Translations under genes and position numbers: made by a program | Shown: one piece after another, positions 3,609-33,734 of the stretch | Numbering within the stretch: the first letter of the stretch is position 1 | Layout: each line of letters begins with the position of its first letter | The notes under the pieces: generated by a model | Told to the model about the DNA's origin: nothing | The model's input: the letters and a program-made list of their open reading frames with translations, nothing else | Database searches by the model: none | DNA from: Phycisphaerales bacterium | GTDB lineage: Bacteria > Planctomycetota > Phycisphaerae > UBA1845 | Reading direction: 5' to 3' | Assembly: GCA_020344555.1 (NCBI GenBank) | Contig: CP070827.1 | Span: forward strand, 4,113,464 to 4,148,057 | Length of the DNA stretch: 34,594 bases

Positions 3609-4409
3609 TCACGTCGACCGGTTCCGACGCAGCATCCGTCGTCCCAACAGCCCGAGGCTGATAAGGGACAGCATTACCGCCGTCGCTGGCTCGGGAATGA
3701 ATGCAACACCCCGATAGTCGCCGGACAGCTCCACGACGTCTCCAATAACGGCTCCATTTCCTGGATCCAGTTGAACAAACTCGGAATAGCCCACAGCATA
3801 GAGCGAACCGTCAGGCGCAAACGTAATGCCCTGATGTGATAAACCTGTATGGCTGCCGATGAACTGCAGTTCGGCGTTGTCAGGATTCACCGTGAACAGA
3901 TCAGCTTCGTCAGCGTTCGGTCGTACCATGTAGAGCTGGCCATCCGGCGAAAAGGCCAGTCCCTGGGGGCGCATTCCAACTCCGCTAAGCGCGCCAACAT
4001 CAGTATGGCTGCCGTCGGCAAGACTGATGATCCGCAACATTGTAGGGGCCAACTGCTCATCACGAGCGGCAACGTACAGGTCTCCCTCAGGTGAGAACGC
4101 CATCCCCCGAATGTCGGAGTCTATGGACAGCGCGTGCTGCGCAGCGCCGTCCATGGGGTCAAGCGTGAAAAGATCACGTTCCTCGCCGGGTCCGGCGTAC
4201 AGAACTCCGCCCGGCGAAAGTGCCAAGGCGTTCAAGTCAGGCGGCACGGTCTGCGGCGATTCGTAGACTTCTCCAGTAGTCGCATCGATCCGCGCGAATT
4301 CGCCACGCCAGCCCACCAGAGCGAAAAATGGACTGGCAAGGACTTGCCCGCAGATTGTCAGTGATGCTAAGAACACCAAACACAGGGAAACAGTCTTGGA
4401 TGCGAACAT
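3609..4409 (-). CDS. PEP-CTERM exported beta-propeller protein
   Basis: The product has 266 residues when started at ATG 4409, which has AAGGAGG about 9 bases upstream. A further 10 codons are open upstream but lack a ribosome site. Residues 1-26 form a signal peptide ending near VLASP. The body has repeated segments with the pattern (F/L)SPxGxLYxxG or FAPDGSLYAVG, typical of a WD40/NHL-like propeller. The last 29 residues are a classic PEP-CTERM tail: IPEPATA, a hydrophobic helix (MLSLISLGLLG), then an arginine-rich end (RRMLRRNR). In known systems an exosortase recognises this tail and processes the protein at the membrane. No exosortase gene is in the window. Ligand and biological role are unknown. 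Confidence 0.9.
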   Translation of the reverse strand: MFASKTVSLCLVFLASLTICGQVLASPFFALVGWRGEFARIDATTGEVYESPQTVPPDLNALALSPGGVLYAGPGEERDLFTLDPMDGAAQHALSIDSDIRGMAFSPEGDLYVAARDEQLAPTMLRIISLADGSHTDVGALSGVGMRPQGLAFSPDGQLYMVRPNADEADLFTVNPDNAELQFIGSHTGLSHQGITFAPDGSLYAVGYSEFVQLDPGNGAVIGDVVELSGDYRGVAFIPEPATAVMLSLISLGLLGRRMLRRNRST

Positions 4410-4734
4410 TGTAGGCCCCCTCCTTCGGGACTGTTGCAACCCACCGCATACGGTGACGTCGGTGCCGTTGCGAATCGATGAGTCTCGCGCCCCGTGCAGC
4501 GGCCGGCTCCGGTGCCGACCATGGAGAGTCTACAGCACTCCCTCGCGCGGAATCCCCCGACTGAAAACTGCACTAGCTACGGCGCAGTATACCCGATCGA
4601 GTCCGTCTCACAAAACGCTGAACCAGCTCGATACCGGATCGATCGATGCCTTTCTCACATCATGTTGACCGGCGTCTGACACGGCGGGCCGAAGGTCTTA
4701 TATTCCACCTTCCCTGTCGCCGGGGTGCCGTATG
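4410..4734. other. Intergenic region carrying the PEP-CTERM gene promoter
   Basis: This 325-bp spacer lies between the PEP-CTERM gene and the 3' end of the epimerase gene. Both genes read leftward, so it should hold the end of one transcript and the start of the next. A candidate promoter is at 4586-4613; no clear terminator or further gene is seen. Confidence 0.5.
4586..4613 (-). promoter_or_regulatory. Candidate sigma70 promoter for the PEP-CTERM gene
   Basis: On the minus strand TTGTGA (-35) is followed 16 bases later by TATACT (-10, plus-strand 4586-4591). It would start transcription about 170 bases upstream of the start codon at 4409. The -10 box is good and the -35 box is moderate. 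Confidence 0.4.
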
Positions 4735-11604: not shown

Positions 11605-11716
11605 CTTCGCTATTCGCCATTTGACATTCGCTGCTCGCGAATCCCCAATCGACAATCGCCAATCCCCAATCCCCAATCCGCAATCCGCAATCGACAATCC
11701 GCAATCCCCAATCACG
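11605..11716. repeat. Degenerate heptanucleotide tandem array (16 x 7 bp)
   Basis: Sixteen consecutive 7-bp units run in strict register. The last eleven fit AATCNNC except the final one (AATCACG), with AATCCCC, AATCCGC and AATCGAC as common versions. The first five are more diverged (CTTCGCT, ATTCGCC, ATTTGAC, ATTCGCT, GCTCGCG). The array overlaps the stop codon of the metalloprotease gene (11712-11714). It resembles the short tandem heptamer repeats of cyanobacteria in style, though origin and role here are unknown. Confidence 0.85.
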
Positions 11717-14700
11717 GACATCCACCAGGCCCGGACCACACAGCGCAGAAGGGGAAGCGTGGCACATCCGAATAGGTGCACCCACGGAACGCATCGAGGA
11801 CCTGTGTAACGTCCGTCATGTTCACCAGCCAATCCGGGAAGTTGGGCTCGATGTCCGCCCTGGACTTAGGCACCGCGTTGGCCAGGTTCTTGAACTTGTC
11901 GAGCACAGCCGTTACGTCGGTGGGTATGCCAACCACTCCGTCCGGCGGGCTGCACGGAATGACCGCACACGTTCCCACCAGATCGCCCCACCCGCTCGTG
12001 GTTATCGTGAGCGGCGCCGAGTAGTCCGCCTCGTTGCCGAAATCGCATTCACAGTCGATGGCCTGTACATCGTAGACCGCGCCGGGGATGATGTCGTCAT
12101 CGGTCACGTGAAGGACGCCCACCATGCCCCAGTCCATGCAGTATGGGGTACCGTCCAGGTTGGCGCTCCAGAAGTCTGGCCAACCCGGTTCGTGATTAAT
12201 CTTACCGGCGTTCTCACTGACTTGCCGCGGCTCACCGACCCAACACTTCGTGCCGTTGAATCCGTTGAACGGCGGCGGGAGGGTGTTGAGGGTAACGCGC
12301 AGAGCACTCTGCCTGCCCGGATTGCCAGGCACCATCGAGATGTAGCGGATTTTCTGATAACCCGCCTCACCCGATGGTGCGGTTGGCGGATCAGACACCG
12401 GACACTCGCTGGGTGGGCAGCTATATAGCTCAAAGTCATCGACGTACCAGCCCAACCAGCCGGTGCAGCCGTTCTTGCCGAAGTCAAAGCGGAACTCGAC
12501 CTCGTCGCCGCCGGAGACGTAACCGCTCAGATCAACAAGCGACGTACCCCATCCCCCGCCGAGCATTGAAAAGCCCGTCCAGGCCTCCTCACCGGCCAGC
12601 GGGTTGGTGTTGCCCGCAGCCGCAGAGGCCAGAACGTCATTGTAGGGGTTGTACTGAAATGCGCTACCCGGTATGAGTTGCCAGTCACCACCGTCGACCC
12701 GAATTCTCACATTGCCCCCGTCGTAGGCCCACTCTGCGTCGAGGTAATGCGAAAACGCCAGTGTTGGAGATGACAGCGGCGGGTCCGTGGGAAGAACGAT
12801 CACCGGGCTAAACAGCGAATGCACTGCCGACTCGTCCTGAGTGTCGCAGTTCCCGACGGAGCGATCCTGGCAGTGCCAAACGGAGCCCGGCCAACCAAAC
12901 GGCAGCCCCCCTGTCGTGATCCACTCCCAGTCGTAGGGCGTCGGCGGGCCGAACGGACCGGTGTTGGAGACCGACCAACCATCGACGTCCAGCTCGAAAT
13001 CATCGAAGTAGAGTGTGGTCCTGTCCGGGCATTTGTCGGGTGGGTCGGGATCCACAACATTGCCGCTAGCGCCGCAAAGCCCCTCGGTGTTCATCTCCGT
13101 CGCCAGCAGGGCCTTGTCGACCTCCGCGGCGTCGGCAGAGGTGAACAAGCCGTAATCGGAGCCGTCGCGGGGGTCTATCACCATCGTGTCGGTCAGGTCC
13201 GCCGCGGTCTGATTCAGTGCCCAGTAGGCGTCCTCAAAGTCTGACGCCGGGGTCAGGTAGGTGATCAGAGCGTAGTACCACACGGCCCCCGCCTTGATGA
13301 TGCCGATCCCGTTTACGGTGTAGCCGTTGAACGTCTTTCCGTCCGACATGATCGCGAACGCGTGGTTGGGAGTGCCGCTCCCACTGTGAACGCCGCCATT
13401 ATCGTCTGGATTGCAGACTTGGAACGGGTGGTTGGCTCTGTCCGGATCGCCGTAGCACGTTGGCTCCCACATATCGCGGATCGCACCGCCAAACGCGCTG
13501 GCGTCCTCCGACACGAGCCAACGCACGCCCTCCGCGCTGCTGTTGGCCCGCATCGTGGCATTGACAGTAGTCCCCCCCTCTACGGTCGAGCGGATCGAGG
13601 CCCCGTCCACCTGCACGATCATAACGGAGGGAATAGTTATGACGTCGGGCGTCCCCGGGGCCATTGTAATCGGAGGCCCGGGGCGATTATTGGCCACGAT
13701 GACGGCGATCGCCCCAGCGTCCTGGCAGTTCTTGACCTTTGTAGTGAAATAGCAGTCGCCGCGGTCGACCAGTGCGATCTTCCCGTTGACCACGCTGGGA
13801 TTCGTGATGGGGTCGCAGGCCAGCGCCGGCTCCGCCAGAGCAACGTCACCGGTAACCCCGGTCTCGTCCAGCGCAGGACCAAAATTCGCGGGACCGGCCA
13901 GGTACGTCCCGGCGATGGAGGGCGGAGCATTGACGTCGAGGGCTACCCCACTTACGCAGGCGCCCGACGTGCGCAGCGCGTTAGGTGTGTCCGTGCCAGG
14001 TCCGACATAGCCGGTGGTCGTCGGCCAGTACGGCGGACCGCTTGGTTCATCACCGGGATCCACTCTGTTGCCGTTAAGCAGGTCGATCATTTCACCCCAG
14101 ATGTCGGAGTATGATTCATTCAATTGGCCGGCTTGATTCCAGTAGATCAGGTCGGCGGTCCAACTGGTGATGCTGTGTCCCCACTCGTGGGCCACAACGT
14201 CGTCGGACGCGGTCCCGGTGCAAAAATAGCTCCACCCGCCGCCGCCGAATGCGTTCGGGCAACTGCTGCTCTGGAGGTGCACGGTCACGCCCATGTCTGA
14301 GCCCTCGTTATCGTAACCGTCGCGACCGAACGCGCGAGAAAAGTAGCCGTACACGTCCCCGGTGTAGTTGTAGGCCGCGTCCGCATCAGGGTCGCCCGTT
14401 GGCGGGTCCTCTTCAAGGCGGACCCATGCGGAAGTCTGGTCATTCCACACCCTCCGGTAGAGTCCGGTGTGTAGGAGGCTCCACCGCTCGAGAATCTTGC
14501 CGGTGTGCGCATCCACGAAGAACGCCTCGCGCAACGGAACCGACAGGTCGGCCAGGACGATATAGTAGGCCAGGTGCGCGCCTTGCGGGGGGTTCCCGTA
14601 CCAGCCCGGGTCAACGATGACAAGTTCTGAATGTTCCACCGTCGGTTGCCCGTGCCCGATCATCCGCCTGGCGATTGTGGTCGCGACTTGGGGCTCGAGC

Positions 14701-15143
14701 TTTGGCTGGGTGTTGACCTTCGCGGCTCTGGGATGGAAGTGGCCGTTGCCTGCGATCACGGCGCCGTTGGGCTCCTGATGGACCTTCAACACGCCGGAGA
14801 ACACCGGCACGCCGTCGTGCACTTGCTGGAACGTGGTATGCGTACGCCCGAGCCAATCAGTGTGGGCCTTCTCGACCTTCAGTTGAAGCCTCGCATCCGT
14901 GACGCCGAACAGGTGACCGTGCGCCACAAGAAAGTCACGCGGCTCAACGACTCGTTTCCCGGCTGCGACCGGGACCGGAACGGGACCTCCGTCCGTCGCG
15001 GTCACGAAGGTCGCCAGACCCGTCCTACCGGACCTCCGAATCGTAAGCCCAACGCTCGAATTCTCGTCCGCAGCGCTCCGGCCCGCGAGAAGTATCTCAC
15101 CTACGAGCGCAAACACAATCAGCGATGCTCTCTTCCAACCCAT
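11712..15143 (-). CDS. Secreted thermolysin-like (M4) metalloprotease with PA domain and novel C-terminal module
   Basis: The product has 1143 residues when started at ATG 15143, which has AGGAAGG about 6 bases upstream; the 60 open codons before it overlap the leader and are rejected. A signal peptide covers 1-25. An FTP/PepSY-like propeptide spans about 30-220. The zinc site is HEWGH (319-323) with the glutamate helix NESYSDIWG (342-350), and the active-site histidine is H586 in NGGVHSGSG. These are thermolysin-family features. A protease-associated (PA) domain (about 440-530, VNGKIALVDRGDCYF) is inserted between the zinc ligands and H586. Residues about 705-912 form a beta-rich, MAM/jelly-roll-like domain. 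Residues 931-1143 match the tail of the propeller/ASPIC protein at 29042-31741. The likely role is degradation of extracellular protein, possibly while tethered to the cell surface. Confidence 0.93.
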   Translation of the reverse strand: MGWKRASLIVFALVGEILLAGRSAADENSSVGLTIRRSGRTGLATFVTATDGGPVPVPVAAGKRVVEPRDFLVAHGHLFGVTDARLQLKVEKAHTDWLGRTHTTFQQVHDGVPVFSGVLKVHQEPNGAVIAGNGHFHPRAAKVNTQPKLEPQVATTIARRMIGHGQPTVEHSELVIVDPGWYGNPPQGAHLAYYIVLADLSVPLREAFFVDAHTGKILERWSLLHTGLYRRVWNDQTSAWVRLEEDPPTGDPDADAAYNYTGDVYGYFSRAFGRDGYDNEGSDMGVTVHLQSSSCPNAFGGGGWSYFCTGTASDDVVAHEWGHSITSWTADLIYWNQAGQLNESYSDIWGEMIDLLNGNRVDPGDEPSGPPYWPTTTGYVGPGTDTPNALRTSGACVSGVALDVNAPPSIAGTYLAGPANFGPALDETGVTGDVALAEPALACDPITNPSVVNGKIALVDRGDCYFTTKVKNCQDAGAIAVIVANNRPGPPITMAPGTPDVITIPSVMIVQVDGASIRSTVEGGTTVNATMRANSSAEGVRWLVSEDASAFGGAIRDMWEPTCYGDPDRANHPFQVCNPDDNGGVHSGSGTPNHAFAIMSDGKTFNGYTVNGIGIIKAGAVWYYALITYLTPASDFEDAYWALNQTAADLTDTMVIDPRDGSDYGLFTSADAAEVDKALLATEMNTEGLCGASGNVVDPDPPDKCPDRTTLYFDDFELDVDGWSVSNTGPFGPPTPYDWEWITTGGLPFGWPGSVWHCQDRSVGNCDTQDESAVHSLFSPVIVLPTDPPLSSPTLAFSHYLDAEWAYDGGNVRIRVDGGDWQLIPGSAFQYNPYNDVLASAAAGNTNPLAGEEAWTGFSMLGGGWGTSLVDLSGYVSGGDEVEFRFDFGKNGCTGWLGWYVDDFELYSCPPSECPVSDPPTAPSGEAGYQKIRYISMVPGNPGRQSALRVTLNTLPPPFNGFNGTKCWVGEPRQVSENAGKINHEPGWPDFWSANLDGTPYCMDWGMVGVLHVTDDDIIPGAVYDVQAIDCECDFGNEADYSAPLTITTSGWGDLVGTCAVIPCSPPDGVVGIPTDVTAVLDKFKNLANAVPKSRADIEPNFPDWLVNMTDVTQVLDAFRGCTYSDVPRFPFCAVWSGPGGCP

Positions 15144-25107: not shown

Positions 25108-27783
25108 CTAGGGGGTCGATAACGTTGTGTCCGCCGGGAACTCGCCCAGCCGCTTGCGGTAGGGCTCCACCTCGTCCGGCCTCCCCCAAGCCTCGTACAG
25201 ACTAATCAGGCGCTGAAGCGCCGTCCGGGCCAGAGGGTGGCTGTAGGTAAGCTCATTATGGAGTACCGCATGGGACTCCAGCAGGATGGGCTCGGCTTCC
25301 TCGTAGCGACCGAGTGTCGTCAGGGAGTCTCCCAGCCGGCCCGCCGCGTACTGGGTGAATATACGATTCTCCGTGGGCAGGGTCTTAACCAACTGAACGG
25401 TCTCGCGAAGTAGGGGTTCCGCATGGTCGGCACGCTCAAGTGCCGTGAGAAGGCTTGCGGTGCCCAGGAGTGCCTGCGCCGCTTCGGTCGAGTCTTCTGA
25501 CCGCTCCGCGATCAACGCCAACGCCTCTCGATACGGCGGCAGAGAGTCCTCGGTGCTGCGTTGGGCCGCAAACAGGGTTGCGAACCTATTAAGCTGTTCG
25601 GCATCGGCGGGACTGCTCTCGGATAGTTGCCGGCATGCGACTGCGATGGACTCGTGCTGCCATCGTTTCGCGGCGGCCAGAGCCCCCTTGGCGAGGTACA
25701 GACCGGCCAAGCGGCGCATCATGCCCGGAGTCCGGATCCTACCGAAGCGCCGCGGTGCGAGGGCAAGCAGCCTGCGCAACATCGCTTCGGCCTCCTCGTA
25801 TCGCCCCAACTGTTGTAAGGCATCGGAGTAGCCCAGCATACATTCCACAGTGAACTGGTGCTCCTCGCCGAGAAGCTTGCGTGACATGATTAGCGATTCG
25901 CTGAAGAGCGACTCGGACTGATCGTACCGCCCTAGCACGTGCTGCATGGCTCCATAGGCGAACAGGCAGCGGGCAATATCGGGATGTTCGTCTCCGAGCA
26001 GCCTGCGGTATAGTGCCAAGGCCTCGTGATAGTGCCGTTCGGCGTCGTCCCACCGGCGTGGGGAGGCCGTTCTCCAGTATGCGTAGGCAAGTTCGTTCTT
26101 GCTCTCGGCAACGAGTACGTGCTCAGCGCCGTACAGCTTTCGGCGCTTGGCCAACGCTTCTTGCTGGAGTTCCACTGCTTCCGGGTCGCGTAGCTCGCCG
26201 AGTACCATTCCCAACAGGACCATCGCTCGCAAAGTATCGGGGTGCTCCGGGCCGTAAGCCCGCACGTACAGATGCAACGCTGCTCGAAGATGACGTGCGG
26301 CTTCTTCCTGCCTCCAAACGGTATCGTAGGCGTGACCGATGGTGTACTGGATCGCCGCCGCCACAGCAGGCTGATCGCTTAACTGATCTGAGATGCGCGC
26401 GGACGCCTCGTCCAGCACTTGCAACAACGTAGCATCGGGGCCCAACCGCTGAGAGCTCGCTTCGAACAGCATGTCTTGGAGGAAGGTCAGCGTTCGCCGC
26501 GCTCGATCGGCCTCACGCTCGGCCCGGTGGTACATCACCGACATCGTTACGCCAAATCCGACGAGAAGGAGCACGAAGCCTGCGGCTACGGCTACGGGAG
26601 CTTTGTGTCGGCGCACGGACTTGTGAAAGACGTACCATGCGCTGTCGCGTTTGGCGTCGATGGGTTCACCCGCAAGATAGTGGCGGATGTCGCGCGCCAG
26701 CTCCATGGCACTCTGGTAGCGGCGGTCAGGCTCTTTGGCGAGGGATTTCAAGACGATGGTGTCGACGTCGTCGTCGATGGAGGGAACGACCTTGCTCGGC
26801 TTATCGGGATCGGTCTGGAGAATGTTGTTTATGACCTCGCGCAGGTGCCCAGCCACGGAGTAAGGAAACCGACTCGCGATAATCTGGTAGAGCATCACAC
26901 CCAGCGAGTAGACATCCGTACGCAGGTCGATTCTTGCGGGGGCGCCCTCGGCCTGCTCGGGGCTGGCCCACGGCAGCGAGCCGACAAACTGCCCGGTCAT
27001 GGTCATGGAGTGCTCCGAGAACCCGTCGCGGGCGTCGTCCGGCGCCGCCTTGGCCAGGCCAAAATCGAGAATGCGCGGCTCACCGTCAGCATCGATTCGG
27101 ATATTGCTCGGTTTGAGGTCGCGATGGATGATCCCGCGCAGATGAGCCGCATGAACAGCCTCGCAGACTTTGCCGAACAGTTCGAGTTTCTTCCGGATCG
27201 AGTAGTCACTGTTGTCCAAGTGCACGTCGAGGGTCGGCCCAGCCACGTAGTCCATGACCATGAAGAATCGACCCGCGGCTACGCCGGAGTCGTGGATAGT
27301 CACAATGTTGGGATGTCTAAGCTGCCCGAGAATCCGCGCCTCGCGCTGGAAACGAGCCCGATCGTGAGCTCCCGCGAAAGGGCCTTCGACCATCACCTTG
27401 ACGGCGACTTGCCGCTCAGTCGCAGTCTGCAGCGCTCGGTACACGACACCCATCGCCCCTCGGCCGAGCTCCGCCCGAATCTCATAGCCTCGAAAGACGT
27501 TCGCCGACAGCATCTCCACGGGCAGCGCCTCGGAAGTACTTCTGAGATTGCTCGCGGTGACCAGCGTCGTCCCGGAGTCGGCGGCGATCCGGCGCGCCTG
27601 TTCCGTCAGGCGAAGGGCGTGAAGCTTGGAGCCGAGCTCCGGCATGAGCTCCGGGTAGGCCGAGATCACGGACTCGTCGGCGACCTCCTCACCAGCCAGG
27701 CGTCGCGCCGTCACGTCCTCCAGCACACGGAGTATATGTGTACCGGGATCGTCAACGTCGACCGTGGGTGACCGATCAAACAT
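25108..27783 (-). CDS. Ser/Thr protein kinase with membrane helix and TPR repeats
   Basis: The product has 891 residues from ATG 27783 (AGGA 8 bases upstream; a GTG lies one codon earlier). After a 95-residue N-terminal region, the kinase domain covers about 99-370. It has the glycine loop GRGAMGVV, K129 in VAVKVM, catalytic HRDLKPSN (220-227), metal-binding DFGLAK (240-245) and SPEQ in the activation segment. One membrane helix (about 397-418, AVAAGFVLLLVGFGVTMSV) separates the cytoplasmic kinase from about 470 residues of TPR repeats. Recurring LGxxHPDTLRAMxxLG-like units are also found in kinesin-light-chain-type repeats. The protein probably senses envelope or protein partners. It follows the ECF sigma gene by 200 bp on the same strand, a common planctomycete pairing. 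Confidence 0.94.
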   Translation of the reverse strand: MFDRSPTVDVDDPGTHILRVLEDVTARRLAGEEVADESVISAYPELMPELGSKLHALRLTEQARRIAADSGTTLVTASNLRSTSEALPVEMLSANVFRGYEIRAELGRGAMGVVYRALQTATERQVAVKVMVEGPFAGAHDRARFQREARILGQLRHPNIVTIHDSGVAAGRFFMVMDYVAGPTLDVHLDNSDYSIRKKLELFGKVCEAVHAAHLRGIIHRDLKPSNIRIDADGEPRILDFGLAKAAPDDARDGFSEHSMTMTGQFVGSLPWASPEQAEGAPARIDLRTDVYSLGVMLYQIIASRFPYSVAGHLREVINNILQTDPDKPSKVVPSIDDDVDTIVLKSLAKEPDRRYQSAMELARDIRHYLAGEPIDAKRDSAWYVFHKSVRRHKAPVAVAAGFVLLLVGFGVTMSVMYHRAEREADRARRTLTFLQDMLFEASSQRLGPDATLLQVLDEASARISDQLSDQPAVAAAIQYTIGHAYDTVWRQEEAARHLRAALHLYVRAYGPEHPDTLRAMVLLGMVLGELRDPEAVELQQEALAKRRKLYGAEHVLVAESKNELAYAYWRTASPRRWDDAERHYHEALALYRRLLGDEHPDIARCLFAYGAMQHVLGRYDQSESLFSESLIMSRKLLGEEHQFTVECMLGYSDALQQLGRYEEAEAMLRRLLALAPRRFGRIRTPGMMRRLAGLYLAKGALAAAKRWQHESIAVACRQLSESSPADAEQLNRFATLFAAQRSTEDSLPPYREALALIAERSEDSTEAAQALLGTASLLTALERADHAEPLLRETVQLVKTLPTENRIFTQYAAGRLGDSLTTLGRYEEAEPILLESHAVLHNELTYSHPLARTALQRLISLYEAWGRPDEVEPYRKRLGEFPADTTLSTP

Positions 27784-27983
27784 CACTATTGTCCTACTAG
27801 AGTCGTGCCGAAGCGGATTGTGTGGTCGCGCTGGACACCGTCAGTCGCTCATTTCGCACAGGTGCATCGAAACGGCTCGGGACAGTTCGAGCACTTGTTC
27901 GAAGCGCCGTCGAGCCTCTGTCCTTTTCTTATACTTAACAAGAAACAGCGTGTGGCGCGCTCCACCCCAATGTCCAGAGTCGG

Positions 27984-28625
27984 CTACCCGGAACTGCTCA
28001 GGTAGCGCGAACGACTGCCCATAAGCTTACGAAGTCGGTCCTTGGCCTTGTAACACAGATTGTGGATCGCCCGCTCGGTCCGCCCCATTTTGGCGGCTGC
28101 CGCGGCCACGGGTTGTCCTTCGATGTAGACAAGTTGTACAGCCTGCCGGTAATCCTCCGGCAAAAAGGCCAGAGCCGCTTGCACCGCTTGCACGGCCTCA
28201 CGTCCGGCGGCGGTCCGGCTTGGCGTTTTGACAGGGGCGGCCAGTAGGTCCAATAACGCCACGCACGATTCCTCAGGGACGCCGGCCCGGGCAGCCCCCG
28301 CCCGCGCCAGCCTGCCGCCGCCACGCTTGAGTGCCCTGTGTCTCTCCACGGCGTTGCGCAACCGGCGGATCGCGATCGTGGCAAACCATCGATAGAACGA
28401 GTCGGGCCCCTGCGGCACAAAGTGGGCAATGTGACTGTAAGCCTGGACCTGAGCATCCTGAAGCACATCGTCAGCGTCGATCGTACCGCGCAAATCCGCC
28501 GGGATTCTCCGTGTGACGTGGTTGCGCAGTCGGCCGCGAGCCTGCGTGAGCAACACGGTAAGCGCGACCGGGTCGCCACCGACAGCTTTGCCCACCAACA
28601 CAAGCTCGTAGGCTTCGCTCGGCAT
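27984..28625 (-). CDS. ECF-type RNA polymerase sigma factor
   Basis: The product has 213 residues when started at ATG 28625, which has AAGGA 7 bases upstream; a 32-codon upstream extension has no such site. Region 2 covers about 14-98, with IDADDVLQDAQVQAYSHIAHF as the core-binding and -10 segment and FYRWFATIAIRRLRN after it. Region 4 covers about 142-202 (LPEDYRQAVQLVYIEGQPVAAAAAKMGRT), a helix-turn-helix for the -35 element. A 40-residue loop joins them. No anti-sigma factor gene is adjacent; the neighbour is a Ser/Thr kinase, which may control the sigma factor by phosphorylation. The target promoters are unknown. Confidence 0.93.
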   Translation of the reverse strand: MPSEAYELVLVGKAVGGDPVALTVLLTQARGRLRNHVTRRIPADLRGTIDADDVLQDAQVQAYSHIAHFVPQGPDSFYRWFATIAIRRLRNAVERHRALKRGGGRLARAGAARAGVPEESCVALLDLLAAPVKTPSRTAAGREAVQAVQAALAFLPEDYRQAVQLVYIEGQPVAAAAAKMGRTERAIHNLCYKAKDRLRKLMGSRSRYLSSSG

Positions 28626-29041
28626 AACGTGTTCCTTGTTGGACGCCGGAACTCCCATCCGCGGCGGATGCCGCGGCACCCCATTGTACTGTATCACGGT
28701 CGATCCGCGCCGACCACCCACGTCGCCCCCGCTGTAGCCTATCTACTCATTATGGGATCTTCATGAAGCGCGCCCTGTGCGTCTTCTGTTGTAGTGCTTA
28801 TGGGGCATGCATGGCCCCCGGGTGGCCAGCGGTGACCGGCGATCCAAACGCCGCACCGGCCGGTCAGGGCACAAACCGTGTTCGGCGTACCTGAACGCGG
28901 AGGTGCCGGTGCGCGCCCGGAGGTGAGTTGCCCAAGGTGAGGGTTTCGCCACTGCCGTTGGCGAACGACCTCACTAACCTCCGTGTCGTATGTGGTCCGC
29001 ATCACGGAGGCCGGTGAGCGACACAACAAAGGAGAACGAAC
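28626..29041. other. Divergent intergenic region, sigma gene / propeller protein gene
   Basis: This 416-bp spacer lies between divergently transcribed genes and should carry both promoters. GC-rich inverted repeats occur (for example CATCCGC/GCGGATG near 28656-28670). No clear sigma70 promoter is seen in either direction, which leaves room for an ECF-type promoter. No gene is supported. Confidence 0.5.
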
Positions 29042-31741
29042 ATGCCTACTACCACAACCAAGTCACCAGCGACGGCTGTGCTTCTGTTGGCCGGTACAGC
29101 CATAATGGGTAACAGCCTCTTGCATGCGGCAGAGAAGTTCCTGCCGGGCAGTCCCGCCATGGACCGCAGCGCCTCGGCCCCCGCGTACGTGGTGTCTGCA
29201 CGAGACAACGTTCCGGACTTCACGGCTCGTGAGGAGTTCGGGGCTGGTCTCACCATTACCGTCGCCTGGGGCGATGCCAACAACGACGGCGCGCCCGACC
29301 TGGCAGTTGGCAACACGATTGGGCCGAATCACCTTCACACCAACAACGGCAGCGGCAGCTTCACAGACTCTAACCAGTTCGGCAGCGCCTCTACGTTCGC
29401 TGTCGTCTGGGGCGACTACGACAACGACGGTGATCTGGACGTGGCTGTCGGAGGCGGGGCAGCACATGCACTCTACGTCAATAACGGAAGCGGTGTGTTC
29501 GATCCTGAGGAGCAGTTCGGCGACTCGACGACCGTCGCCATGGCGTGGGGTGACTGTGATAACGACGGCGATATAGACCTTGCCGTCGGCAACGGAATCC
29601 TCGGTCCAGAAGAGCAGAACTATGTCTACGTCAACAACGGAGATGGCTCGTTCACTGAGCAGGAAGCGTTTGGCATGGGACGTACGGACTCCGTTGCCTG
29701 GGGTGACTTCGATAACGACGGCGATCTGGACCTGGCCGTGGGCAACGGCGGCTTCCAAAGAAACGAGCAGAATTATCTCTATACCAATGAAGGAAATTGC
29801 ACCTTCCACGCGGTTGCGGAATTTGGAACTGCAGACACCGCCGCGGTGGCCTGGGGTGACGCCAACAGCGATGGCCTGCTGGACCTCGCGGTGGCCAACT
29901 GGGGAACGGACAATCAAAACCGCCTGTACATCAACAAGGGCGATGGAAGCTTCGAAGGACGAGCGGAATTCGGGGCTCGAGACACTAATACGATCGCGTG
30001 GGCGGACTTCGACAACGACGGCGATATGGACGTGGTGGTCGGGAATGGAGACTTTGACGTCGCCGATCAAAACTACCTGTACGTCAACGCCGGCGATGGC
30101 ACGTTCGTGGAGTTCGCCGAGTTTGGACTGGGGAGCACCGATGCCGTCGCCTGGGCCGACGTGGAGGGCGACGGCGACCTGGACCTGGCCGTGGGCAACG
30201 AACACCATCCCTACACCAACTATCTCTATATCAACAACGAGAATGATCAAGACTACCTGATCCTTCACCTTGTTGGGCACCGACATGATCTGGGTCCCGG
30301 ATACTCGAACCGAGACGGGATCGGCGCGAGGGTCTCGGTTTACGAGTCCGGCCACATTTGCGACGCCGATTACCTGCTCGGCTTCCGGCAGATTGAAGCT
30401 ACGGGAGGATTCAGTCCACAACAGTCCCTGGATGCGGAGTTTGGGGTACCAGGTCATGCGACTGTAGATATCCGGATTGACTGGCCCGGGTCCGATGACC
30501 AGTCCATCGTGCAGGAGATTGCGGGCGTTGCGGTCGCGCAGCGAATAGTCGTCGATGAGGCAGTAAGCGTTCCTGGTACCGACTGCAACAACAATGGGAT
30601 GTCCGACGAATGCGATATTGGAAGCGGGGCGGCGCCGGATTGCAACGACAATGGTGCACCCGATGAATGTGATGTCACCGGTGACACCAGTGACGACTGC
30701 AGCGGAAACGGAGTCCCCGACGAGTGTGAACCGGACTGTAACAACACCGGCGTGGCCGACAGTTGTGATATCCTCGAGGGTACTAGTGACGACTGCAGTG
30801 GCAACGAAATCCCAGACGAGTGCGAGCCGGACTGCAACAACACTGGTGTGGCCGACAGTTGTGACATCCTCGAGGGTACAAGCGACGACTGCAGTGGCAA
30901 CGGCGTCCCCGACGAGTGTGAGCCGGACTGTAACGACACCGGCGCGGCCGACAGTTGCGATATTCTCATGGGGACCAGTCAGGACTGCAACACCAATGAA
31001 GTGCCGGATGCATGCGATTTGGCGGAGGGAACCTCGACCGACGTGAACGGCAACGGTGTCCCGGACGAATGTGACACGTGCCCCCCCACGGATGCACCCC
31101 AGTCGGAAGAGGTAGCAACGGCCAAGAACCGCTACCTGACCATCGTGCCCGGCAATCCTGGGCAACAAACTGCCATCCGGGTGACATTTCAGAGTCTACC
31201 CTCACCATTTGACATCTGGAACGGCATACACATGTGGGTAGTCTCGCCGGTGGAGATCAGCGAGAATGCCGGCAAGCTCGAGCACACACCGGGCTTTCCG
31301 GACTTCATGGCCGCAGACCTCCAATGCGAGCCCTACTACACTGATTGGAGCCCATATGGCATCATCCACACCCACCATGAAGGCATCGTTCCAGGTGGTG
31401 TGTATGACCTGCAGGCAATCGACCAAGAGTGTGACGCTGGCGCCGAGAGCAGCTACTCGGCACCGCTAACGATAACCGCCAGCATTTGGGGCGATGTGGT
31501 GGGGCACTGCGCGGTTATTCCGTGTACTCCGCCGGACGGCGTCGTGGGCATTCCCACCGATGTCACGGCCGTGCTCGATAAGTTCAAGAATCTCGAGGGC
31601 GCGCCGGCTAAGGCGAGGTGCGACATTGAGCCCTGGATACCGGACTTGCTGGTAAACATTGCCGACGTCACGTACGTTCTGGAGGCGTTCCGCGGGTTTG
31701 CGTTCCCGTTTGAGCCTGGGCCGAGTCCGTGTGATCGTTAG
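29042..31741 (+). CDS. Secreted seven-bladed propeller / ASPIC / TSP3-like protein with novel C-terminal module
   Basis: This 899-residue exported protein starts at ATG 29042 with AAAGGAG 8 bases upstream. A signal peptide covers about 1-30. Seven FG-GAP/VCBS-type repeats follow, each built on WGDxDNDGDxDLAVGN with centres near 76, 123, 169, 220, 271, 320 and 371. Their spacing of about 50 residues predicts a seven-bladed calcium-binding propeller. Residues about 400-507 resemble the ASPIC/UnbV domain. About 513-680 is a chain of calcium-binding repeats of the DCNNNGxxDECD type, related to thrombospondin type 3. Residues 695-899 form the module shared with the metalloprotease. The protein probably acts in adhesion or ligand binding at the cell surface; no enzyme residues are seen. 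Confidence 0.92.
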   Translation: MPTTTTKSPATAVLLLAGTAIMGNSLLHAAEKFLPGSPAMDRSASAPAYVVSARDNVPDFTAREEFGAGLTITVAWGDANNDGAPDLAVGNTIGPNHLHTNNGSGSFTDSNQFGSASTFAVVWGDYDNDGDLDVAVGGGAAHALYVNNGSGVFDPEEQFGDSTTVAMAWGDCDNDGDIDLAVGNGILGPEEQNYVYVNNGDGSFTEQEAFGMGRTDSVAWGDFDNDGDLDLAVGNGGFQRNEQNYLYTNEGNCTFHAVAEFGTADTAAVAWGDANSDGLLDLAVANWGTDNQNRLYINKGDGSFEGRAEFGARDTNTIAWADFDNDGDMDVVVGNGDFDVADQNYLYVNAGDGTFVEFAEFGLGSTDAVAWADVEGDGDLDLAVGNEHHPYTNYLYINNENDQDYLILHLVGHRHDLGPGYSNRDGIGARVSVYESGHICDADYLLGFRQIEATGGFSPQQSLDAEFGVPGHATVDIRIDWPGSDDQSIVQEIAGVAVAQRIVVDEAVSVPGTDCNNNGMSDECDIGSGAAPDCNDNGAPDECDVTGDTSDDCSGNGVPDECEPDCNNTGVADSCDILEGTSDDCSGNEIPDECEPDCNNTGVADSCDILEGTSDDCSGNGVPDECEPDCNDTGAADSCDILMGTSQDCNTNEVPDACDLAEGTSTDVNGNGVPDECDTCPPTDAPQSEEVATAKNRYLTIVPGNPGQQTAIRVTFQSLPSPFDIWNGIHMWVVSPVEISENAGKLEHTPGFPDFMAADLQCEPYYTDWSPYGIIHTHHEGIVPGGVYDLQAIDQECDAGAESSYSAPLTITASIWGDVVGHCAVIPCTPPDGVVGIPTDVTAVLDKFKNLEGAPAKARCDIEPWIPDLLVNIADVTYVLEAFRGFAFPFEPGPSPCDR

Positions 31742-32810: not shown

Positions 32811-33734
32811 TTACGGCCCATCGAAAGATCTCATGAACGTGGCGTAGTCCGCCAGATCCACGTCGCCGTCGCCGTCAAAGTCGCCGAGAATAGTGCCTTC
32901 TTCCTGGCAGTTCGCGGAACACCCGTCGCCGTCGACGGTGTTGCCGTCGTCGCACTCCTCGCCCGGGTCGACGTGGCCGTCGCCGCAGGAGGGGGCCAAC
33001 TGAATCTCCCAGTACATGATCATCTCGTCGACGCCGAATCCGGCGATGTCTTCCCCACCCAGACCGACGACCCCGGCCCCGGAGACGCCGTTGGCATCGC
33101 TGTCATGGAGGGACAGTTCGAAGCAGCCCAGGACCGTTCCGGCATCTGCCACGCAGAAGCCGGAGTCAACGACGGTGAAGCCGGGGTTCGGAGTCCAGTT
33201 GATCTTGTCGGTACCTGCCGCGGTCGTGCCTACGTCCATGCGCCAGGAGTCGTAGATAAGACCGTCAGGCGAGACGGACCCGGCAGGCACGATGTCCGAG
33301 CCGTCCGTTGTAAAGTAGTTGACCTGGAGTGAGTTGGTCCCCGGCACCCCGGGGCCGAAGTCGGTTCCCACAATCCGCATATCCACACCGGAGATCAAGT
33401 TTGCCCCGGCGCTCTCCTCGCCTGTGCCGAAGGTGTGATTGTCGGGGACATCGTCGACGATCCAGGCAGTCGCGGCGTCCTGGACGAGCCCGACCGCGTC
33501 GTAGGTATCACCGGTCGCGTCGCGCAAGGCCGCGATCCGGACATCCAAGTCCCGAACACTGATCAGGCCAAGCTGGGGCGTCTTCTGCGGCGTCACCCCG
33601 AGGACCGCGGCGGTGTGGCCGCTCGTTGCGATCGGGGTACCCCTAACCTCGTGGCCAAAGACCGGCAGCAGGAAGCATCCGAGCCCCGCACAGGCCAGCC
33701 CGGTCACGGTCCATCGCGTTCTGTTGTTGAGCAT
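32811..33734 (-). CDS. Exported protein with Cys-rich repeat and dockerin-like tail
   Basis: This 307-residue protein starts at ATG 33734, preceded by a purine-rich GAGGAAAGG site about 8-10 bases upstream. A signal peptide covers about 1-28. The body (about 30-245) is beta-rich and includes [11 protein letters not shown] and a [22 protein letters not shown] segment with paired cysteines; I do not recognise its family. Near 251-278 is a Myxococcus-type cysteine repeat ([17 protein letters not shown], then GCSANC). It ends with a single dockerin-type half-repeat ([17 protein letters not shown]) with intact Asp ligands. The layout of Cys-rich segment plus dockerin tail matches the partial gene at 1-296, suggesting a shared surface-display route. 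Confidence 0.85.

Follow-up and report, generated by a model that had tools for sequence, protein, structure and literature searches.

The module at the locus

The window, by which we mean the whole stretch of 34,594 nucleotides analysed here, encodes two proteins with different bodies that end in copies of the same module. This module consists of an N half of about 120 residues, predicted to form a beta sandwich, a dockerin-derived C half of about 75 residues, and a proline-rich tail with a near-invariant cysteine. The first host is a secreted M4 protease on the reverse strand, whose body (12405–15143) comprises a signal peptide (MGWKRASLIVFALVGEILLAGRSA), an FTP propeptide, the M4 catalytic and alpha-helical domains, and a PA domain (Pfam matches: M4_C, 1.3e-27; PA, 2.9e-20; FTP, 2.7e-13; M4, 1.8e-9). 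Downstream of it lie the linker CPVSDPPTAPSGEAGYQK with a conserved cysteine (12351–12404), the N half of copy 1 (11991–12350), which is predicted from its alignment to copy 2, from the alignments A1 and A2, and from the AF2 model of copy 2, the C half with its pair of loop-helix repeats (11769–11990; WGDLVG...DVTAVLDKFKNL / PDWLVNMTDVTQVLDAFRG), and the proline-rich tail DVPRFPFCAVWSGPGGCP, in which the penultimate residue is a cysteine (11715–11768).

The second host is an FG-GAP/ASPIC protein on the forward strand (Pfam matches: FG-GAP_3, 3.9e-45; UnbV_ASPIC, 7.6e-7). Its body (29042–31078) carries a signal peptide, an FG-GAP/ASPIC propeller, and cysteine-rich NGVPDEC repeats, and is followed by the linker CPPTDAPQSEEVATAK, again with the conserved cysteine (31079–31126), the predicted beta-sandwich half of copy 2 (31127–31486), the dockerin-derived loop-helix repeat pair (31487–31708; WGDVVG...DVTAVLDKFKNL / PDLLVNIADVTYVLEAFRG), and the tail FEPGPSPCDR with its near-invariant cysteine (31709–31738). 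Tandem cysteine-rich repeats (DCSGNGVPDECEPDCNNTG...) precede this copy at 30500–31060 on the forward strand and recur in several other module-bearing bodies of the genome. Elsewhere in the window, our reading of the open reading frames (ORFs) places a Ser/Thr kinase with a TPR-like region beside an ECF-type sigma factor (25108–28721, reverse strand).

A previous sequence-only reading had located the shared stretch at 11715–12353 on the reverse strand (residues 931–1143 of the protease, a numbering that assumes the ATG at 15143 as start) and at 31124–31738 on the forward strand (residues 695–899 of the FG-GAP/ASPIC protein), and had estimated a gap-free identity of about 63% between unrelated parents. 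Our alignments agree with this on every point. The two copies align locally from the linker cysteine to near the C-terminal end with 133 identities in 229 columns and a score of 681 (maximum of 50 among 200 shuffles), and their core is 63% identical across 192 residues without a gap. The two bodies, by contrast, reach a score of only 41 and are unrelated, which rules out full-length relatedness of the parent proteins. The stretch from CAVIPC to DKFKNL, previously described as differing in one residue, indeed differs at one of 29 residues, whereas 14 of its 29 third codon positions differ. The identity of the two copies is therefore old and maintained by purifying selection, and a recent duplication or gene conversion between them can be ruled out.

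Sequence searches of Pfam and the PDB returned no relative of the N half. In the AF2 model of copy 2, means over 10-residue blocks lie between 77 and 91 across most of this half, and a Foldseek search of the model against the PDB returned C2 and FN3 folds, none of them at a significant level.

Dockerin ancestry of the C half

Comparative analysis of the C half points to the dockerins, the plugs from which cellulosomes are assembled. Nearly all of the 23 PDB matches listed for a C-half profile, and all of the best eight (top E-value 0.0027), are chains of cellulosomal dockerins or scaffoldins. The NCBIfam model dockerin_GC (NF041540) matches 12 of 14 C halves, with a best E-value of 4.3e-6, and aligning the C half by hhalign to 13 canonical dockerin stretches places the two in register, if weakly (E-value 0.036). 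In both window copies, the first loop-helix repeat aligns to the second with a score above all 500 shuffles, and the AF2 model of copy 2 contains one helix after each loop (residues 146–157 and 182–192). Judged by homology, the C half is descended from dockerins; the dockerin likeness suggested by the sequence-only reading was right in this sense, being borne out by the PDB profile, by dockerin_GC, and by relatives with a canonical loop.

However, we do not file the module as a canonical dockerin because the window copies miss both the curated scores and the canonical loop. All curated dockerin models stay below their cut-offs on the window copies, and Dockerin_1 of Pfam has no match on the window proteins; dockerin_GC reaches 13.6 bits on copy 2 (E-value 0.067) and 26.8 bits on one relative, against a cut-off of 29. 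The canonical 12-residue calcium loop, with ligands at positions 1, 3, 5, and 12, is retained in relatives such as L159 (WGDVNDDGPINFDD) and L152, and in one copy of this genome, o289 (WGDVNNNGTVDIDD). In 60 of the 70 measurable copies of this genome, the aspartates of loop 1 are spaced by 22 instead of 11 residues, so that canonical calcium binding is doubtful; the window copies share this spacing by sequence and do not fit the canonical loop. Like type I dockerins (Pfam PF00404; NF041540), the module sits C-terminally on secreted modular proteins and has two tandem loop-helix repeats, each about 22 residues long. It differs from them in that loop 1 of most local copies contains an insertion of 11 residues with a cysteine pair and loop 2 is longer, and in the beta-sandwich half that precedes the dockerin-derived one.

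A small protein encoded in the window (32811–33734, reverse strand) has a DUF4215 domain and finishes in one dockerin-like repeat of canonical form. Elsewhere in the genome, a protein of 426 residues (L175:18174-19451) joins a region that looks cohesin-like by eye to a module whose loop is canonical and to another dockerin-like pair.

Conserved cysteines

The tails are short and rich in proline, most of them finishing in Cys-Pro or a similar sequence. Of 72 intact copies, 60 have a cysteine among their last four residues; the same holds for 32 of 576 ORFs in the background (p about 1e-48). In alignment A2, this cysteine is invariant down to 35% identity. The linker cysteine is likewise conserved, 13–23 residues upstream in most copies. 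Three pairs of cysteines co-vary (phi 0.97–1.0), one of which is formed by the two cysteines of HCAVIPC in copy 2 and lies within the loop-1 insertion. Seven copies have only three cysteines in module and tail together, an odd number. Because confidence is low in the AF2 model that includes the tail (pLDDT 58), the model gives no partner for the tail cysteine.

Copies and host proteins in the genome

The two window copies belong to 104 matches of the module in 96 ORFs of this genome. The source assembly (5.25 Mb, 71% complete) joins short contigs by gaps of 100 N where we read it, which is why several module genes are cut; our gene models are stop-to-stop ORFs in 1.38 Mb of the genome's stretches. 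Among 76 intact copies, defined by a genuine stop codon and a C-terminal end that is not cut, the module lies at most 45 residues from the stop in 72. Internal and tandem copies also exist, and six ORFs contain two to four matches each. One copy contains an in-frame TGA that interrupts it (C1:4199179-4200312, reverse strand). A strict signal-peptide rule is passed by 28 of 62 module ORFs compared with 106 of 509 others (p 9e-5), and a looser one by 37 of the 62; both rules are home-made and miss GTG and TTG starts.

The host bodies are diverse. Scanning 73 module copies, we found S8 (10), DUF7901 (7), M28 (6), M20 (4), M4 (3), and M12B (2) bodies, and other copies are attached to FG-GAP, RCC1, and beta-helix bodies. 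The nearest neighbour of a module belongs to a protein with an unrelated body for 50 of the 73 copies, and M28 paralogues whose bodies are 63–72% identical have modules that are just 30–32% identical. These data strongly support the view, already put forward in the sequence-only reading, of a portable C-terminal module on varied bodies: an attachable tail of about 195 residues on about a hundred proteins of this planctomycete.

Distribution and association with cohesins

The module is restricted to one family-level planctomycete lineage. Sampling the class, we found it in 39 of 397 genomes, and in the order in 40 of 114, with the high-copy genomes falling into one GTDB family; in a phylum-wide sample of 392 genomes, only the present genome scored.

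Within 51 genomes of this family, richness in the module (six or more copies) tracks cohesin, and not exosortase or ordinary dockerins. Of the 25 module-rich genomes, 24 have cohesin, as do 9 of the 26 module-poor ones (counted by genome, p = 3.9e-6; by genus, p = 0.01; uncorrected for kinship), whereas exosortase and Dockerin_1 each occur in all 51, irrespective of the module. Some findings speak against cohesin as the partner: genome G451 has the module and no detected cohesin, the nine module-poor genomes have cohesin, and in the present genome the roughly 100 module copies are far more numerous than the six detected cohesins.

The association extends to gene neighbourhoods. Cohesin gene clusters in genomes G439, G440, G470, and G472 adjoin a module-bearing gene. 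According to Pfam, those of G439 encode cohesin + HYR and cohesin + PKD proteins, including one of 1075 residues (Cohesin, 2.8e-9; HYR, 4.1e-8) in which we read dockerin-like repeats by eye, and the present genome encodes similar proteins (L124–L126 and L128). In genome G449, a single ORF of 892 residues contains both a cohesin match and a full module. Other, divergent regions in module-bearing cluster proteins look cohesin-like by eye only and found no match in the PDB.

Function of the module

We consider it probable, judging from homology and genomic context, that the module docks a peptidase-rich set of secreted proteins onto cohesin scaffolds. The host proteins would be exported by the Sec route, and the dockerin-derived half would then plug into the cohesin domains carried by scaffolds or adaptors, proteins that combine cohesin, HYR or PKD, and dockerin. 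The beta-sandwich half may stabilise or tune the cohesin contact, as the X module does in X–dockerin pairs. Chains such as 2b59 and 3kcp, which are X module–dockerin pairs of cellulosome scaffoldins with a beta-sandwich domain directly before the dockerin, are among the PDB matches of the C-half profile. The N half nevertheless shows neither sequence similarity to such chains nor a significant fold match, and the module is found on enzymes and many other bodies rather than on scaffoldins only. What we observe is homology and association; the binding itself, its calcium dependence, and any part played by the tail cysteine are inferred.

This would yield a surface assembly in which proteolytic proteins make up a large share, much like the "planctosome" that has been proposed for the Nemodlikiaceae of the Phycisphaerae (Andrei et al, 2019; PMC6461901). 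Its described features are adaptors of cohesin, HYR, and dockerin, peptidases with docking domains, and a cohesin anchor protein with a lamin-tail domain (PMC6461901). An adaptor of cohesin, HYR, and dockerin is encoded in G439, with the similar L124–L126 and L128 in the present genome, and peptidases with docking domains occur here with S8, M28, M20, M4, and M12B bodies. The differences are a composite module of 195 residues present in about 100 copies in one genome, bodies rich in S8, M28, and M4, and a cysteine tail.

Other functions have to be weighed against docking. The surface-anchoring or sorting role envisaged in the sequence-only reading fares differently in its parts: the likeness to dockerins stands by homology, whereas the comparison with PEP-CTERM was mistaken and that with Por/T9SS tails finds no support. 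A cleaved secretion or sorting signal of the PEP-CTERM or T9SS type would fit the strong C-terminal bias of a module on exported proteins, in a genome that has another sorting route in exosortase. Nonetheless, we regard such a signal as highly improbable: the tails have no PEP motif, no hydrophobic or membrane helix, and no basic cluster, internal and tandem copies of the module disfavour cleavage, and exosortase is ubiquitous in the family with or without the module. For T9SS, SprA_N had no match in seven genomes, in a search without a working positive control. An undescribed export route gains no support, many copies having ordinary signal peptides and the module being tracked by cohesin. 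Separately, a PEP-CTERM-like tail (FIPEPATAVMLSLISLGLLGRRMLRRNRST) is encoded in the window at 3609–4439 on the reverse strand, and the genome has two exosortase matches, indicating a separate sorting route.

The module might instead be the surface anchor itself, its C-terminal cysteine tail being bonded, by a disulfide or otherwise, to a surface component with no involvement of cohesins. The enrichment of the terminal cysteine, its invariance in alignment A2, and the odd cysteine number of seven copies speak for such an anchor; however, as the linker also has a conserved cysteine, the module is equally likely to be closed by a structural disulfide, and internal copies have no C-terminal end nearby. 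We hold this reading to be unlikely. We think it rather less plausible still that the module serves as a cap with a structural or regulatory role, for instance as a stabiliser, an oligomerisation domain, or an intramolecular protease inhibitor. The bodies of the 73 scanned copies gave more than twenty matches to peptidase families, which would suit a cap, as would the pairwise co-variation of cysteines, but many bodies are of other kinds (FG-GAP, RCC1, beta helix, DUF7901), and the module does not move as a unit with its body.

Docking onto cohesins thus remains the reading that we prefer. A bolder form of it is conceivable, if on balance doubtful, in which the module and its partner cohesins form a new docking type in one planctomycete lineage: the first calcium loop of a dockerin would be replaced by a disulfide-bearing insertion, the cysteine tail would lock the plug, and about a hundred possible subunits would build a partly proteolytic surface complex. 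The loop change can be traced stepwise, as relatives and one local copy keep the canonical loop and most others have gained the insertion. For about a hundred proteins of this planctomycete, the analysis names a likely docking part, and its link to cohesin gene clusters makes the hypothetical planctosome testable against defined partners.
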